A DNA stretch of 64,000 bases, taken from positions 1 to 64,000 of the forward strand of contig KV919079.1 of assembly GCA_002049455.2 (NCBI GenBank), in the 5' to 3' direction. A program made the position numbers and the translations under genes. Each line of letters opens with the position of its first letter. Positions within the stretch are counted from its first letter, which is position 1. Positions 50,826 to 60,939 of the stretch are shown piece by piece. The notes under the pieces were generated by a model that saw nothing but the letters and a program-made list of their open reading frames with translations, was not told where the DNA came from and did not search any database. Source of the DNA: Porphyra umbilicalis (Eukaryota; Rhodophyta; Bangiophyceae; Bangiales; Bangiaceae).

Positions 50826-52278
50826 CGGACGTACAAGGTCGTCCGCCATGGGACTGAAGGTGGTCTGTTAGTGCCGCAGGGGGTATGGAAGACAGCGAGA
50901 GGGAAGGGGAGGCACGGCACCTGCCTCATGAGCAGTGGCGGAGCAGCATGCGCGACGGTGCCTGTGCGTCAGAGGGCGTAGGAGAGGCGTTGAGATGGCC
51001 GGCGCGGGAGGGGAAGCGGGGGGGCGTGTGTGACGTGGCCTTCGCATGAGTGGGCGCGGGAGAGGCGGTGTGAGGGCGGGCGTGGGGAGGGTGCGGAGGC
51101 GTGCGTGACGGGTCCTGTGCTCGCGTGGGAGTGACAGAGCCGGTTTGGGGGTTAGTGCAGGGCGGACTGCGTCCTGGGCGCGCGAATGATGGTTTGCTGC
51201 ACGGGCGGCGGAAGGTGAGGGAGAAATATTTTCCGGTCATCTCGGCTCGTCGGTGCGAGAGCATGCAACTCATGACATCGCTGTAAGCCGTATTCTCAAC
51301 TTTCCGGCTGAAGGTAAAGCTAGAATTTGACCCTCGTCGGACATTACATCGGATCGGTCTGCCACCACACAGCGTTTTGTCCCCGATTCCTTAAAACTGA
51401 GAACTGCCAGATTCGAACACGCCCACCGACGGTTCGCAGAACTGTCGCACATTGATCATGCGATCAAATTATGCCCACTTTTTCTTGATCTTGGAGACAG
51501 AGCCTGCAGTGGAGTTCAGAAGTGCTCGAAGACCATCTGCACCGATATTCAGTGGGAATCATCCTCACACCAGCACCTGCAGATTCGGCAAATGTCCGGC
51601 GAAGTTGCTGCCACAGGCTGACGAAGGATCATTCCGATTCGCTGGTTCTGATCGTTCTGCGTATCGTGCTGAGAGCTGTCCTGAAGAGGGAGTAAGATGA
51701 TCCTGGGGATCGTGCTCAGGACTGTCCTGGCGTCGGACTACAATCATCCTGAGGATCGTCGTCATAGATTGAGTGAACGAGTGCGCAAGATTGATCTAGA
51801 TTCCTGCCTCAAGGACTCGATCGTAGATGATAGCCTGGACTACTTCGAGTGACGTCGTGAGGAGGGTCTGCCGAAACCGATCAGAGAGCAAGACCTGCCC
51901 ATGGGGCGTCGCTCCTGGGCCACGAAACGTGTGTAGAGGGAGCCTCAATCTGACTTGGTAGTCGTGCGACCGACACGCTGTTTCCCGGCGCAGAGGGGAT
52001 GGGAACCGGGTAAACATGCGTCGGCTCGCACATCGAGAATACCGTCAAGTCCCGGACGCACCCACTCCCGATTTATGAATGATTGGGTCCCTTACACGCG
52101 CAGTAAATTCGTTCTCAGCTCAGTGGCAATCTTGTCCCCTAACAGCACGTCCCGAACTCGCAGTCCCCCGGTTCAAAACATGTCAGAAGCACTCGCACCG
52201 GAACACACAAGCGCATGAGTGATGTCAGATTCCACGATGGGCTTTAGTTTGAACGGAGAGAGTGTCAAAATGTTTTCG
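50826..52278. other. Spacer before the large foldback
   Basis: No gene recognised. 51630-51760 holds two direct copies of a ~45-bp sequence containing ATCGTGCT, then CTGTCCTG, and several GATCCT/GATCAT motifs also seen in the foldback centre (53.08-53.3 kb). Confidence 0.4.
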
Positions 52279-54067
52279 CTGGCCTTTAGGACAGGGTGCT
52301 CTCAGAGTGTAGTGATGCACACATGTACTTAGATCAAGGGACTTGATCTTCGTTTCAGCGGTGGCAGGTTGCATTCGTGTCCTCAGGGATCTGAGGGCGT
52401 GTTAGTGTTGGAAGGGTCGCGATGACGCTAAAAGCGAATGGAGTTACGTTGCTGAGAAGGACTGTCCTGCCACAGGGGTCACAGAGCGCGGACGGCGCCT
52501 GCCCCCCAGCCCCCCCCCCACCGCGCCGAGTTGCGCGCGGCGACCGCGCGCAGCGACTTCCGGGGTTCAACGCGCCCACGATGACCCGCGGGTGATCGCG
52601 CCTGCGCGCGGCTTTTGTTGCGGCGGCTCGTCGGCGAGATTAGAAGCCATCTAGCGGCGCGGTTAGAGGCGCCCCGTCGCGCGGCGGTCGGTCCCACCCG
52701 CCCGCCCGTGCGCCGTGTCGGCCTCCCCGCCCGCCCTGCGCAGGTGCGCTGCGCGGCGGAGTGACGGTCCCTCCCGTGGGCGTCTCGCGACGCCGGCGCT
52801 GCCGTGCTGCGGTGGCGGCGGCGGCACCCTTTTCCCGTCCCACGCCCCCCCCGCCACGGAAACGTGGCTGTACGCGCCCCCATGCGCGCTCGCGGCTATG
52901 GAGCCGGCCTGCGTGCCAGGTGTCAGTGCGTCGCGGAGCGCGCCACTGCCCTGATGGCCAGGGTATTGCACGCACGTGCCTGGAACTTGTTCATTCTGTT
53001 GACGGAATATGCAGACATTTTGCTTGCGGACGAGGCAGTCAGACGATCAGTTGAACAAGTCCTCACATTTTTTCGAATGATAGTCCCCGAGATGATCTGA
53101 CGGTCAGGATGACACTGCTTCTGGAACGATCCCAGAATCAGTCCCGAAGATGATCCGTTGATCGAGTCCAGAAACTGTAGTGATGAACTGCCGAATCAAA
53201 GAGGTCACTCGAGAATCAGGCTATCTGAAATGTAAGATTTACGCTGATCCACGGACCTGTTGTGCACATGATCCTCCGAATCATGCTGAGGCCATCTCAC
53301 AGGAGCTTCGCATGGCCGTCTCAAAACATTCTTTCGCGTCTACTCGTTATAGATTCCAGGCACGTGCGTGCAACACCCCGGCCTTCAGGGCGGTAGCGCG
53401 CTCGGCGATGCATCGACAACGGGCACGCCGGCTGGCTCCATGGCCGCGAGCACGCCCGGGGGCACGTACAGCCACGTTGCCGTGGCGGGGGGGGCGTGGG
53501 GCGGGGAAAGGGGGGCCGCCGCCGCTACCGCAGCGGCGGCGGCCCGCCGGCGTGGCGCAACGCCCACGGGCAGGACCGTCACCCCGACGCGCAGCGCATC
53601 TGCGCACGGTGGGCGGGGCAGCCGACACGGTGCACGGGTGGGCGGGTGGAATCGACCGCCGCGCGAAGGGGCGCTTCTAACCGTGACGGTAGATGGCGTC
53701 AGCAACCGCCGACGCGCCGCCGCAACAGAAGCCGGCGCGCAGGCACGATCATCCGCGGGTTATCGTGAGCGCTCCGAACCCCGGAAGACGCTGCGCGTGG
53801 TCGCCGCGTGCAACTCGGGGCGGTGGGGGGGGGCAGGGGGGCACGCGCCGTCCGGGCCCTGTGACCCCTGCGGCGGGGCAGTCCTTCTCAGCAACGTAAC
53901 TCCATTCGCTTTTAGCGTCATCGCGACCCTTCCAACGCTGACACGCCTTCAGATCCCTGAGGACACAAATGCAAACTGCCACCTCTGAAACGGAGAGCAA
54001 GTCCCGTGATCTAAGTCTATGTGTGCATCACTACACTCTGAGAGCACCCTGTCCTAAAGGCCAGGGA
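52279..54067. mobile_element. Large foldback element with ~710-bp inverted arms
   Basis: Left arm about 52279-52990, right arm about 53355-54067. The outer ends (CTGGCCTTTAGGACAGGGTG) and inner ends (GCACGTGCCTGGAA) match in inverted orientation, and intermediate blocks match throughout, such as GCGCTAAAAGC-type sequence and ACGTTGCTGAGAAGGACTG. I estimate 80-85 percent identity by eye, with small gaps at C/G runs. The ~365-base centre is unique and AT-richer, with repeated GATC-containing motifs. No protein is encoded; the Arg/Pro-rich frames in the arms mirror each other. No clear target duplication was found at the flanks. Confidence 0.8.
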
Positions 54068-54581
54068 ATTTACAAGCCGGCAAGTTTAGAACTATTTCGG
54101 CGATGAAATACCGACCCGCAGTGCATCGGATCTCAGCTTCCGATGGCGGGTCCGGTGACCGCAATCCGATGGCGATTTGACCATTGGATTCATCCGATGG
54201 CGGGTGTCCCCGGAGGACGCTTGTGTTCTCTCTAAACGGGGATTTGCGAATATTTGATGAATGTCCAGCCCAGTAATATTATACCCACGAAACGTTGTGA
54301 AGATGATCAGGTATGTCCCCTTGACGGCACTTGAGTGGGGCTTCTGTCAATGTCCAGGGGTAACTTGGTGTGGCCAACGTTTGCATGGATGCTTTTGTGG
54401 CGGTCTCGATGGCCAATCTGATTGTGGCTGCCCGCCTGCACTGGTGTTCGTAGCTACGACTGGGGACCCACATTGCGCCCCTCTCTCCCCACTGTCATGC
54501 GATTGCTCGCCCCCTCCCACATTCGTGGCTTCCCTCTCCCACCGCCGTCGCCGCGGGCTGTGCACGGGGAGGCTCGTGGGC
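54068..54581. other. Spacer with short direct repeats
   Basis: TCCGATGGCGGGT occurs at 54139-54151 and 54193-54205, with TCCGATGGCG also at 54165. Otherwise no feature; possibly the 5' end of the element that carries the helicase. Confidence 0.4.
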
Positions 54582-56034
54582 ATGCCCGCTCGAGTTTTCC
54601 TGGACTCTCAGCAGAGCCCGGCGGTCCGCCTCGTGCTCGCGGGGACCATTGTGGCCTAGGTTGGGCCGGCCGGCTGCGGCAAGAGCGTTGTGCTCCGGTC
54701 TTTGGTGGACGCGGGGCGGCGGCGCTTCGGCCGTGATGGCGTATTGGTGCTAGCGTGGGCGGGCTCGGCCGCACAGCTGGTGGATGGCGTGACGGTATCC
54801 TCTGTGCTTCGCACAACGGTGGGCGACCCGTCGAAAGAGACGATCCTGTGGCGGATTTTGGGGAACCCGGCGGCGCGCGACGAGCTGCGGGCCGTGCGGA
54901 AGATTGCGATTGATGAGGCCCCCACCATTCAAGGGCGGTGGATGGACCGCCTGGAGTTTATGCTGCGCAAAGTATCCCCGTCGCCTGCCCTTGAGGTCTT
55001 GCCCTTTGGTGGTCGCCGTGTTCTTGGTACGTCGCGTCTCATTCCCTCCTGCCTTGCGGCGTCATGCTGGTGCGTTGTTGGTCCCGCTCGTCACTGGTGT
55101 CTGACTCTTGCCACCCCGCTGTCTTTAGCTTCCTCCGTGATTCTGTCTTGGGGTTGGTTCTGCAGCCGCAGGGGATCCGTTGCAGCTCCCGGCTTTCGGG
55201 GTGCGCGGTGACTCGGTGGAGGTGTGTGCCTACCAGACGCGGTCGTGGTATGACACGTTTGTCTCTCACTTTTTCGTGGCGGTGCAGCTCTCGACCCTGC
55301 ACCGCCAGAACCCGGACGACCTGCTCTACCCCATCCTGATGCGGCTGCGCGTCGGCGCACCCACGGACGATGACATCAACCTGCTCAACTCGACGTGGGG
55401 GGTGGAGGGCGAGGACGAGTGGCCCAACCAATAGCACCTGCGCGCCAAAAACTGCGACGTGGAAACCGTCAACGATCGGCGCCTCGTCGAGTTGATGGGC
55501 GTGCCGGTGACGTTCACGTGTGTGGACACTATCAACGTGGAGCAACCTGACCGTCAGGCCTCTGTGTATGCCAAGCTGAGAATGCTTGCTCGCGGCGTGT
55601 TGCAAGTCAAGCCCGGGGCGGGGGTGGTGCTGACGCGTTCGGTGGGTCAGGTGATGACGGAGGCTCGGGGGCGCGTCATCGGGGCGAGTTCTCATTCTGT
55701 GCGTTGTTCTTTCGTTGGACATGAGGAGGCTGTGGAAGTGGGGGTTGCGGAGTTTGCTGAGTTTGTGGTGAAGGATGCCCTGGAGAAGATGTTGGGGAAG
55801 CGATTTCAAGTACCCCTGCTTCTAGCTTGGGCCATGACCATCACTCGTGCCCAGGGCATGACTTGGCCGGCTGTGGCCATTGACTTCGGTTGCACGACGT
55901 GGTCGCCTGAAGGTATGGTCTACTCGGGGTGCTCCCGCTCTGTTTCTTTCTCTACTTTGCGTGTGCTGGGGCTGACCCGAGATCACGTGCGCGCCATCCC
56001 ACACGGTTTGCAGTACTATCAAGGCCTGGAGTGA
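54582..56034 (+). pseudogene. Pif1-like helicase, two in-frame TAG codons
   Basis: Exon 1 (54582-55026) and exon 2 (55172-56034), joined by a GTACGT...CCGCAG intron (phase 1), give 435 codons. Superfamily 1 helicase motifs are in order: the Q-motif region (VFLDSQQSPAVRLVLAGT), Walker A (VGPAGCGKSVV), DExx box (KIAIDEAPTI), motif III straddling the intron (GDPLQLPAF), and a late AWAMTITRAQGMTWPAVAIDF, which fits motif VI of Pif1. TAG codons interrupt it at 54657-54659, just before Walker A, and at 55432-55434. Both could be CAG/CAA decay products. The protein is reduced compared with full Pif1 helicases and has no Helitron Rep domain in the visible upstream sequence. It most likely belongs to a mobile element. 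It ends 27 bases from the end of the opposing ORF. Confidence 0.75.
55027..55171 (+). other. Intron of the helicase pseudogene
   Basis: 145 bases, GTACGT to TGCAGCCGCAG, phase 1. Splicing restores the GDPLQLP motif exactly, which supports the call. Confidence 0.8.
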
Positions 56035-56060
56035 GAGTAGAAAAAAAGAGTACGTTCTTA

Positions 56061-58163
56061 TTATTCGACAGGAGCCATGTACTGGGACATCCACAATACC
56101 ACTTGCCGAGTAAGGGGGGCGCCTGGCTCGCATGCGCCAACGCCTTGCACCCTGTTTGGAACTAAAAGGTCGGGGAAGTGCTCCACTACACAGTGCTTGA
56201 AGTGGTTCGACTGGTAGAGCAGGTTGGAGAAGAGATACCGCGTCGACGCGCGCCCCGGGTCGACGCGCACAGCAAACACCTCGGCTGTCAGCGCCTCGGT
56301 CAGCGCCTGCTGCCATGGTGTTGGGGCGGCGGGATCCCGTGGCGGCTCTCCGACGCAATGCTCGGTGGGGAGCACATGCGGGCGGGCACGGCGCCAAACA
56401 ACGGCTGTGCCAAGTCGCCGAGCCCCTGCCAAGTTCCGGGGACGGTCCCACAGAGCAACCCGAGGTCTGCAACGAAGAACGGAAAGGCCGACAACTGAGG
56501 TCAGGGAGTGAACGCAACGAAAAAAAAAGACCCAGTCACCGCCACGGCAGACAGCAATGCAGCCTCGCAGCAAGCGCCGTGCACGTACCCGACCCAGGAC
56601 ACATTCCACACCAACGGATGGTCGCAAACGGCCAGCAAAGGTGGACCGGTGCCCGTGGGCGAGGGCGTGGTGCCGCTCTCGGCCTCCCTGTACGGGTAGA
56701 TGGAGTTGCGGTGCCCCTCAACGACAGACATCTCGTTGACGAAAACAAAAGAGGCGTCCAAGCGGCGGCCACCCCCCACTGCCGCCATAGGGTCACAGTG
56801 GCCTTAAGCCACCAAACCAAGCTGCGGCAAAACGAGCGCGCAAATGTACGTCGTCGACGAAGAGGGCGTATCCGAACAGATGGAGCGAGCTGACGCGGCG
56901 GCGGCAGCCGTCGCTTCGCCAGCCGAGCATGTTTTCGGGAGAACGCGGGTGCGGGGGGGAGATGGGGGCTGGCCACCAGTGGTGGCGTCGGCGGCGACGC
57001 CCGTCGCGTCGGCTAGGATTGAATCACGGCGGTCACTGGCCGTTACGTCACCGCCGACAGGGGGGGGGGTGCGTTGGGGGGGGGGGGTCAGCGGCAGGGC
57101 CGGGGGCGCCGCCAGTTTGCGCGACGGCGTTGGTCGTCCGCAGCCGACGGCCACGACGCGGTGTCTCCGTCCTTGCGGCGACGTCGCCGTCTGGCGCCTT
57201 GCGCTTCCTTTGCGCCTCCGCAGTTACGCCCGACTGGAACTGGTCGACGAGCCACAGATAGAGGGGCTGCCGCTGGTAGACCATACAGCAGATGATCGCA
57301 AAGACCACCTCGTGCGTCACCCTGCCCGTGTTGTTCAAAACGGGGTTGGTGACGGGAACGTGCCGCTTGCCGTCCCAGTACTTGACCACCTTGTTGACCA
57401 CGACTTTGGGGGTCAGCGACTGGTATGTCGGCGACCTTCGGGACTGCACCGAGTCGGCGGGGAGACGGAGGAGGAGGGCATGAGTGCTCTGCTTGAGCAG
57501 CACGAGCTACGCCCGCACCAGCTGCTGGCCGTTCTTGTAGTAGGTCCTCAGGGAGGTGAGAACCGTCTGGCAAAGCTCCTGTGGCACGTTGACCTCGGGT
57601 AGCGCAGCGGTCGCTGTCGCGGCGTGCTCCGCTCCCGCCGCGTCCCCGCCCTCCGCGTCCACATCCCCCTGAGAGACATCACCAGCGCCTGCGCCGCCAC
57701 CGGCCGCCCTGTCACCGGCCACCTCGTCACCGTCCGCCCCTGTGGACGCTTTTGAGCTGCCCTGCATCTCAGGCAAATCAACCATGCTTGGCACATCCGG
57801 AAGCATGTGCCGGCCGGGTGGCACGATGGGAACGGCGCTGCCTTCTTCGGCAAGTCGGGGGCGGTCGCAAGCGTTGATGGACCGTGCGCTGCCGCCAGCC
57901 AGGCCGCTCAAGTCATGAGCTCCGGCCAACGCCAGCGCAGTCGCCGCCGGCACCCGCTCCAAGCTGGTGGTCACAGACGCCTCACCTCCCCCCTGTTGTA
58001 GCCCCAGGGACGCTACCCGATGAACAACACCAGCCCCCTGCCTCCTTCTCGCCCCCCCTCCGTGCGCCACAGCCGGCAAGGCATCCCCCTCTGCGGCTCC
58101 AGCCCCTGCCTCGCCCGCTCGTCCGGCTCTGGCCGCCTTTTCGCTCGCTCCTCCTCCAGCCAC
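56061..58163 (-). pseudogene. Broken ORF of unknown family, tail to tail with the helicase
   Basis: Starting near 58163 (MAGGGASEKAARAG) and reading left, one frame is protein-like to 57050, interrupted by a TAG at 57507-57509. It contains SMVDLPEMQGSSKAS, SLRTYYKNGQQLVRA, and after the TAG KVVVNKVVKYWDGKRHVPVT and VFAIICCMVYQRQPLYLWLV, followed by a basic patch (QRKRKAPDG). Past C runs at 57060-57090 it resumes in another frame, with a TAA at 56804 and a TGA at 56501, then LDASFVFVNEMSVVEGHRN and DLGLLCGTVPGTWQGLG. It ends in a third frame with ALTEALTAEVFAVRVDPGR and VVLWMSQYMAPVE. About 650-700 residues in all. No family recognised. The pairing with a Pif1 helicase suggests a second element-encoded protein. 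Confidence 0.5.
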
Positions 58164-58309
58164 AGCGCCCCCGGCCTCACCACTGTGGTTGCTCTACGCG
58201 GAGGCGCCCGAGCCTAACCGTTGGGCACCCGATGAGGCCTGTCTTCCCGCACCGCCCCGCACAGCGCCCGCGACAAGAAGAGAGCGCAAGGCAGAGAATA
58301 TCAGCTTCA

Positions 58310-58494: not shown

Positions 58495-58929
58495 CTATTT
58501 ACAGGCTCTCACCCTTGCGGGTTTGTCTTGCCAATGGCGGTTCCAGGCAGTGTCATTAAGACAAGCCAATATCGGCGTTGGCCGAGGAAGCTCCTCCGTG
58601 CAGCGCACGTGCTCCTGACAGACGATCTCACGCACACGCGGCAAGATCGCCTCAATGTTTTGTTCAATGAACTCGGTGCCAAAGATGCACGGGACTGACA
58701 AGTTGTCGGAAACGAGGAATCGGTCAAATAGACGTTCACCTCTGGTGTCTGCATACAGACGTATGGCATACTTCGTCACGAAACGACTGTTGTTTGCATC
58801 TCGGATGCGCGGAAGCGTGGTCAACTCCTTAGCGTAAGCCATCCAGTTCCCAGTGAGAACACTAGGTCGCACTATGTTCACCCCGGCACCCGTGTCAAGT
58901 ACAGGGCGGCAGCTCCGCATCACCCGCAC
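58495..58929 (-). pseudogene. Retropepsin-like aspartic protease of the retrotransposon
   Basis: 144-codon frame. The active-site loop is PVLDTGAGVNIV (DTGA). A later FLVSDNLSVPCIFGTEFIEQ gives the second hydrophobic-Gly element of the fold (CIFGTEFI). Its ending, ARVRACK, is followed by a stop. It lies in a different frame from gag. Confidence 0.7.
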
Positions 58930-59059
58930 GCACGGGCCAAGCGTTGCGGCGATCTCTTAGTGCCGTAAGGCACGGCGCAACAATCTTGTTACCGTACGCT
59001 TTCGTATTCCGCCGGGCAACCCCCAATCGGGCACCCGGCCTAAGCGTTTTTCGAGTCCT

Positions 59060-60939
59060 TCACGGCGTCGGCCGGGGGCTCGATCTCGTCGATTTCGACG
59101 TTACCGTCGGCAATGGCATGAACGCCGATCGGAGACGCTCGCGAGGGCGATATGGCTCGGCACACTGTGCGGCGGAGTGCCCGGGCATGTTACAATTGTA
59201 ACAAATGTCAGCCCGAATGGCTTGAGGGACGGCGGCCCGCGGGGGCGGCGGGGTGCGAACCGGGGTGAACGGTCGTTCCGTCATCGTCCACTGGTCCTGT
59301 GTCGCGTAACAGACTTGGATTGCCGTTGGGCGGGTCATCTTGAGCTGCAAGCGCAGCTTGTTGGTGCCGTCCCAGTACATCTGGGCGGTAGCAACAGTCT
59401 CGGAGAGAGTCCGATCCGGGAATTGGTCATTCAAGACCCGCACGTGCACTTGCACAAGGTCCGAAAGACCAGTGATGAAGACGCCCTTAACGTCTTGGAT
59501 GTCGAACAGACCGTTCAGGAGGTCGCATTTCCTTTCCACGCGGTGACCAAAGGCCGTGGGCGCCTCGTTGTCTTGTTGCTTCATCGTCTTGATGACTTGG
59601 TACGCTTTAGCCATAGTTGCGTGTGTCGCATACTTCGAGAGAAGCCAGCTGACGGCGTATCCGTATGTACGGATGGCAAAACGCTTACGTCCGAGGGTTC
59701 TATTGAGCGTGCCGGAGAAGGCCATCATGGAGTTTCCGGCTAGTCGAAAGACCATGAGTGGAAGGGCTTGACCGTGCGTCAGCCCAGCCGCGTCGCACGC
59801 GCGTCAAAAGGTCATTAAGAACGTGAGGATGCTCAAGGGCAGGGCTCCCGTAAATGGCTGTTGCCCATGGAACGCTCCGTATAAACGTTTGTTGAAACAA
59901 TGCGACCGTCGTGCCTCCTCAGGCGTATACGTCAGTTGACGGCGGATCAGGAAGTACGTCCTGTATTCCAGAAGTGTCGTGAAGCGGCTATTAGCCGGGC
60001 GGATCACTTTGATCCTATCGGCTTTTTCAAGTCGCTCCTTCCGTTTGATGGTGGTGGGGGAAGCGGGGCGCTTGCGCGCGGCTGCGTCCGACTCGCTTGA
60101 GCTGTCGCTCGGCGAGGACCCACTTGCGGGCGACGGCGGGCCTGGCGGCCCGTGGCCGTAGTCCGAAGAGGACGTGTCCGTCGCGTTGGAGGTGTCTTCG
60201 TCTGACGACGTCGGGCTTGACCCAGAGGCAGAATCATCGGAGATGAGAAAGGCGCGGCGTTTGCCGGATCGTCATTGCGGACGGACTTGTCTTCAGTCAC
60301 CTTTCTTGTCTTCTTGACATTCTTTGTCTTGTAGCCCGACTGGCGGCGAGACTTAGCCACACGGCGTTCCTCCTCGTGGGAGTCGACCTTGCGCAGGGCC
60401 TCGACGTCGTCGACCAACTTGTCGGTGGCTCGCGCCAGAGACTCATTAGTCTGCTCTTGGGCCGTTAGACGTCGCTGAAGTGCTTCAACAGCCGCCTCCA
60501 GACTCTCCACCACCTGCATCTGCCCGAAGGCGGCTTGATCCGCAGGGATGGGAGGACTAGGAGCACCGTCCGTGGGGGCGTCAGAAGCGGCAGGAGTGCC
60601 TTTTCCCCCGCCCGGCGGCCGGTAGCCAGCTGGCAACATGCCGTCTCTGGCGCGCCGAGTGTCGCTGGTACCGCCAGCAGACATACTGGGACCTGAACAA
60701 AGTGTTCCGACTTGGCTAGCGCCCTGCGCGCCAGCGTCGAAGATCTCAACCGTAATGCCCCCGGCGCCACGCGCCCAAGTCAATGGCTTACGCCCCGCGC
60801 GCCAAGCGACCATATCGACACCGTCACAATGCCAGGAGGCAGCGAGAAAATTCTGGGGAACACAGTGCCACGAGGCACGATGAAAACAAGGGTATCCCCT
60901 GCTGCTCCACCAAATGTGGTAATAGTAACGTTGGCGCAA
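59060..60939 (-). pseudogene. Gag of the retrotransposon, broken
   Basis: The N-terminal part has a coiled-coil-like stretch (VVESLEAAVEALQRRLTAQE) and a basic region. A frame change lies between about 60250 and 60007, and a TGA at 59804-59806 interrupts the capsid part. The capsid-like core then reads MVFRLAGNSMMAFSG, LSKYATHATMAKAYQVIKTM and a LFDIQDVKGVFITGL segment typical of the gag C-terminal domain. The end has one CCHC zinc knuckle (CYNCNMPGHSAAQC). At least one frameshift and one stop make it non-functional. Confidence 0.75.

Follow-up and report, generated by a model that had tools for sequence, protein, structure and literature searches.

The stretch of DNA analysed here (hereafter "the window") comprises 64,000 nucleotides of Porphyra umbilicalis with a G+C content of 68% (contig KV919079.1, positions 1 to 64,000), and it is part of contig C319 in an assembly of 83.8 Mb and 665 contigs. 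Positions 54582-56034 of its plus strand hold the relic of a Pif1-type helicase with one intron and two in-frame stops. Exon 1 (54582-55026) starts with an ATG at 54582 and carries the Walker A and DEAP motifs, whilst exon 2 (55166-56034) carries GDPLQLP and TITRAQGMTW; between them lies a predicted GT...AG intron of 139 bp (55027-55165). The exon limits were set by eye, and the exon 1 and exon 2 matches of relatives stop and start, respectively, at this intron. The Pfam PIF1 domain (PF05970) matches the window at 54642-55022 (E = 5.7e-9), and helicase relatives align with it over 54681-55076 and 55162-56037, the exon 2 alignments reaching E = 3.9e-70 and 1.5e-53 in tblastn. Apart from TAG stops at 54657 (exon 1) and 55432 (exon 2) the frame is intact across the relic and reads as a short, separate two-exon gene of 437 codons. 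A related copy on contig C291 matches PF05970 more strongly (E = 1.3e-13) and also matches solved PIF1 chains (E = 8.8e-11); with both the PIF1 domain and the helicase motifs present, the gene is a member of the Pif1-type (SF1) helicases. The spliced helicase relic that a first-pass annotation of this DNA had read from its motifs is thus borne out by homology.

The closest copy of the relic is a sister at C99:96699-101227 (L013, L010, L050, L051), 83-86% identical over window positions 54747-57085; its helicase carries a 245-bp insert, and a copia-like frame follows downstream, as judged by eye. One helicase codon is a stop in both copies (TAG and TAA), and because this position is common to the two they may descend from a copy that was already broken. 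Between them pN/pS is 0.52 and 0.40 in two stretches of helicase exon 2.

On the minus strand, a second and likewise broken gene extends from 56061 to about 58193 and meets the helicase tail to tail, its frame ending 26 bp from the helicase stop; the annotation had this spacing right in kind, with a figure of 27 bases that was one too many. Comparison with fuller copies elsewhere in the genome resolves the product of this third gene of the element (see below) into four domains, N, MID, CT and C2, linked by long Gly/Ala-rich stretches, and the MID, CT and C2 domains of relatives match the window in that order. The C-terminal exon with C2 occupies 56061-56462 (tblastn E = 6e-15 over 56462-56073; alignment A4) and is probably preceded by an intron. 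CT, at the end of the long exon, lies at 56582-56791, where one of the two relatives tried gave E = 1.3e-4 and the second E = 1.3 only, and MID, with an interrupting stop, lies at 57228-57593 (tblastn E = 3e-15 and 4e-10; alignment A2). An open frame running into MID makes 57594-58193 a probable low-complexity part of the same gene. A tblastn search of the window did not recover the N-terminal domain, the best match (E = 0.024) lying elsewhere and being judged a chance one. The earlier view that both genes have decayed is correct.

Equally, within Pfam-A, and among PDB sequences as far as profiles were tried, the reading of this ORF of ~2.1 kb as matching no family holds. No credible Pfam-A match was obtained when MID, CT and C2 profiles were scanned at E up to 10 and the N domain was scanned within whole proteins, and against PDB sequences the MID profile gave no match and C2 a single one at E = 1.1. 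Two candidate domains, a BEN-like domain and the plant CACTA-associated C-terminal domain, gained no support, with no credible Pfam match for MID, CT or C2. Single-sequence structure prediction for two window pieces reached mean pLDDT values of 39.9 and 42.4, too poor for use, and the nuclease or recombinase fold that the annotation had asked about gained no support.

Other repeats flank the pair. Upstream of the helicase, a palindromic repeat of about 1.8 kb (52275-54068) has arms that are 81-92% complementary around a 368-bp loop, and about 124 bp of it are 90% identical to L068:7255-7378 on C167. Downstream, at 58495-59803 on the minus strand, frames with a protease-like DTGA and a CxxC...zinc-knuckle-like motif resemble an LTR element by eye.

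Seen in the window alone, with both genes decayed and lying among other repeats, the arrangement could be taken for two unrelated genes, host or mobile, that came to lie tail to tail by accident. Genome-wide searches speak strongly against this. Two window pieces of the third protein gave 10 and 15 matches at E up to 0.001, and the C2 exon of the C167 copy gave 26 at E up to 0.01; all 51 matches, the window's own included, have a helicase of the same family as their tail-to-tail neighbour. Many matches share loci, so that the total comes to 26 loci, one of which is the window. The pairing tests took 40 of 76 helicase matches, and the 3 kb around these 40 make up about 0.3% of the genome. The gap between the two genes is at most about 400 bp for 25 of the 26 C2-exon matches and 2.6 kb at C104. 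Two of the three C9 loci stand in tandem beside a run of N, possibly as an effect of assembly: C9:422500-438000 (L069) holds two tandem element copies 7.7 kb apart with the run of N inside. Since the pairing holds genome-wide, chance juxtaposition is excluded, and we rejected the accidental reading, which we regard as extremely improbable, on this pairing together with the equal synonymous divergence of the genes described below. The adjacency of the pair that the annotation had proposed to check is therefore constant, and its suggestion that the two genes belong to one mobile element is upheld.

In fuller copies a long open frame lies upstream of the helicase, with 1,520 codons at C167 (L073), where the start codon is undefined. 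It carries the motifs CxC...CxH, a cysteine cluster, DG..LG, VYDFACG...FHIVNH and HEQRN, and we regard it as the transposase of the element; the CxC...CxH motif, which no tool matched, presumably resembles a SWIM finger. A 372-aa piece of this frame has 110 matches in the genome. Linkage was counted over all 110 transposase and all 76 helicase matches with a limit of 15 kb: at 17 of the 26 paired loci a transposase match lies upstream within this distance on the helicase strand, at two it lies upstream but on the opposite strand, and at seven, including the window, no listed transposase is found within 15 kb. In a subfamily found at C168, C56 and C77 the transposase is oriented opposite to the helicase, at a distance of about 9 kb on its upstream side; gene order therefore varies across the clade. 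Counted from the transposase side, and with the PIF1 matches of the genome added to the 76 helicase matches, a listed helicase lies within 15 kb of 21 of the 36 closest matches and 31 of all 110, leaving 15/36 and 79/110, respectively, with no listed helicase in that range; these matches may represent elements without this helicase, elements whose helicase has diverged too far for it to be listed, or broken copies. The transposase was not found in the window copy, which has lost it, and the gene was for that reason invisible to the annotation. Among viral contigs, 136 stretches matched the search patterns, none of which encodes a relative of the transposase.

By a chain of homology the transposase can probably be placed in the KDZ (Kyakuja-Dileera-Zisupton) superfamily. 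Pfam scans gave no direct match between the element transposase and the KDZ family PF18758, which has 28 matches in the genome, three of them also matched by the element transposase. One PF18758 protein, L091 on C172 (E = 4.3e-9), is 29% identical to the element transposase (BLASTP E = 3e-10), and hhalign aligned the two with a probability of 94% over 106 columns, a span that takes in the C...GF, YD.AC and D..H...H.CS residues. For the KDZ-associated cysteine cluster CxC4, the 1,504-codon frame that encodes the C150 transposase gives a match with E = 0.0033 and 23.0 bits, below the curated cut-off of 26.9, and a slice of the C167 transposase gives one with E = 0.062; nine of the 12 CxC4 sites over the cut-off lie, as judged by eye, 1.2-1.5 kb upstream of an element-transposase match on the same strand. 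The PF18758 sites themselves are often followed by a helicase: at 17 of the 28 (C51, C541, C223, C162 and others) the same strand carries a PIF1 match 4.5-6.0 kb further downstream, whilst five have a PIF1 match in some other arrangement within 12 kb and six have none. Because so many PF18758 sites precede a PIF1 match, the genome seems to contain a second helicase-bearing KDZ clade.

The limits of the element were obtained from three related copies that end at an identical sequence. A 20-base pattern from this end, searched with up to 3 mismatches, gave 27 matches in the genome versus two for the reversed control. Twelve of the 27 pair up by eye, at C6, C2, C150, C181, C481 and C274; one, 78 bp inside C2, is a second copy of the right end, and the remaining 14 have no partner. 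At C6 (12.7 kb) and C2 (15.5 kb) the third gene, the helicase and the transposase all lie inside the inverted repeats, whereas the other four pairs span 2.6-3.6 kb and are too short for three genes. The paired termini read GAACC[T/C]CGGTA... and GCAAGACGGGTAATCG..., and the terminal inverted repeats (GGTAATCGTAG..TTGACGG) are inversely oriented at all six loci. Once the flanks had been read, the termini were set by eye at one position common to all pairs; with these termini, exact 6-bp target duplications are present in 6/6 paired ends versus 0/30 mispaired ones. Because the base before is C in all six, a 7-bp duplication (CNNNNNN, invariant C) fits as well as 6 bp; 8 bp are duplicated in 3/6. 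An initial automatic test that placed the ends 6 bases more to the inside showed no duplication. The left end was recovered by the 20-base pattern, not by long DNA queries taken from the right end. The element ends were not found in the window, where a single match to the pattern, with 5 mismatches at 54443, was judged to be chance. Both the bounding ends and the target duplications that the annotation had asked after are thus present in the paired copies.

These ends also bear on a Helitron origin, in which the helicase would represent the Hel portion of a RepHel protein, with the other ORF as cargo. Pif1-type helicases are best known from Helitrons, with RepHel members of which our element shares this gene, and the genome has at least 125 PIF1 matches. 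To our knowledge, however, Helitrons have neither a target duplication nor terminal inverted repeats, whereas this element has both, and it encodes its helicase as a short separate gene with a DDE transposase alongside. Scanned against Pfam, none of the three proteins of the element showed a HUH/Rep domain, in keeping with the lack of a visible Rep domain remarked on earlier; nor was the helicase seen beside a RepHel Helitron, or the third gene found to be a host gene or gypsy pol, outcomes that had been named beforehand as refuting a single element. We therefore rejected a Helitron identity and consider it highly unlikely. The element explains part of the PIF1 matches of this genome, which cautions against taking every Pif1-bearing repeat for a Helitron.

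To compare the three genes we used one pair of loci, C167 and C463, between which pS is 0.53-0.57 in all three. Within this pair dN/dS is 0.14 for the transposase (277 codons), 0.16 for helicase exon 2, and 0.19, 0.16, 0.22 and 0.16 for the N, MID, CT and C2 domains of the third protein, respectively. The equal pS and similar dN/dS indicate that the three genes diverged together, as a unit, and have been retained about equally well. In the group of C291, C6 and C2 the compared parts have dN/dS values of 0.09-0.29 where dS is unsaturated, whilst more distant pairs of copies are near saturation. The youngest pair, C463 and C9, compared for the helicase only, gives 0.62 at a pS of 0.04.

Taken together, the three genes are co-located, share terminal inverted repeats and 6-7 bp target duplications and, in one pair of copies, have diverged equally under purifying selection. 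The pairing, repeats, duplications and equal divergence point to one element that is not a Helitron, and the pair in the window is very probably what truncation has left of a KDZ-superfamily cut-and-paste transposon with a transposase, a Pif1-type helicase and a third gene. A full element spans 12.7-15.5 kb and encodes, in an open frame of about 1,500 codons, a predicted DDE transposase; the helicase follows on that strand and meets, tail to tail, the gene of the four-domain third protein. The transposase would cut at the inverted repeats by DDE chemistry, and the helicase might unwind the ends or the gap in excision or repair, or couple transposition to replication. Our guess for the third protein is that it binds DNA, perhaps at the TTGACG-rich subterminal repeats, or assists the transposase. 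The window copy, without the transposase and both ends, would be unable to move by itself, and the palindrome and the LTR-like stretch may have removed its missing parts.

In cut-and-paste transposition by DDE elements, separating the strands and repairing the gap are usually regarded as tasks of the host. In the C167-C463 comparison the Pif1 helicase is under selection about as strong as that on the transposase, and it is accompanied by a partner family for which no relative was found in Pfam-A or, with the profiles tried, among PDB sequences. Since the helicase is kept like the transposase, it becomes testable whether some DDE transposons supply their own helicase to excision, repair or replication. 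A bolder form of this idea, that the helicase and its partner of unassigned fold are working parts of DDE transposition, which would be helicase-dependent, perhaps replication-coupled, and ancestral to a large KDZ clade in this genome, we put forward tentatively and think unlikely; it is weakened by the many transposase matches with no listed helicase nearby. The same observation, with 15 of the 36 closest transposase matches lacking a listed helicase within 15 kb, favours instead a KDZ element that needs its transposase alone and carries the helicase and third gene as passengers or dispensable accessories, and accessory genes are known from fungal KDZ elements (PMC12477816, PMC12730594). Against this stand the dN/dS values of the helicase and third protein, as low as that of the transposase between C167 and C463, and the PIF1 matches downstream of most PF18758 sites; moreover, diverged helicases near the remaining transposases may have been missed. 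We regard dispensable passengers as a serious possibility, although a somewhat improbable one.

The annotation had presented the locus as a candidate for an undescribed element type. This part gained no support, as the fuller copies have inverted repeats, target duplications and a transposase assignable to KDZ; what we did not find in the literature searched is such an element that also has a Pif1 helicase gene and the new third protein. In the accessible portions of the sources consulted (PMC12730594, PMC12477816, PMC8226300, PMC9297572, PMC7473861, PMC6431247) we found no KDZ element with a Pif1 gene, and an earlier description is possible. KDZ transposases exceed 1,300 aa and their elements reach 30.3 kb (PMC12477816), a long transposase and large size that our element shares along with a homologous predicted DDE transposase, KDZ-type motifs and a putative CxC4-like cysteine cluster; the Pif1 helicase and the tail-to-tail third gene set it apart from the known members. 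Zisupton and Dileera make 8-bp duplications and Kyakuja 7-bp ones, the described Kyakuja families having 5'-CA..TG-3' termini without inverted repeats (PMC12730594). With duplications of 6-7 bp our element thus differs from both Zisupton, with which it has inverted repeats in common, and Dileera, and could match Kyakuja in a 7-bp duplication but not in its inverted repeats. Enlarged En/Spm (CACTA) elements of the red alga Chondrus crispus measure 16-20 kb and have 4-5 ORFs (PMC6431247); they resemble ours as large multi-gene DDE elements of a possibly related host, and differ in the transposase superfamily as reported.

Short copies, presumably non-autonomous, with inverted repeats and duplications are found at C150:76423-79956, C181:130811-134372, C481:4241-7777 and C274:35687-38333. 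A frame resembling ornithine carbamoyltransferase by eye, with a possible plastid leader, adjoins the C150 copy. When the flanks of the C181 copy are joined, they match each arm of the window palindrome, with local scores of 35 and 32 compared to at most 16 for 200 shuffles, and the arms contain a single CCGGAC or its one-mismatch form; they hold the empty site of the C181 copy.
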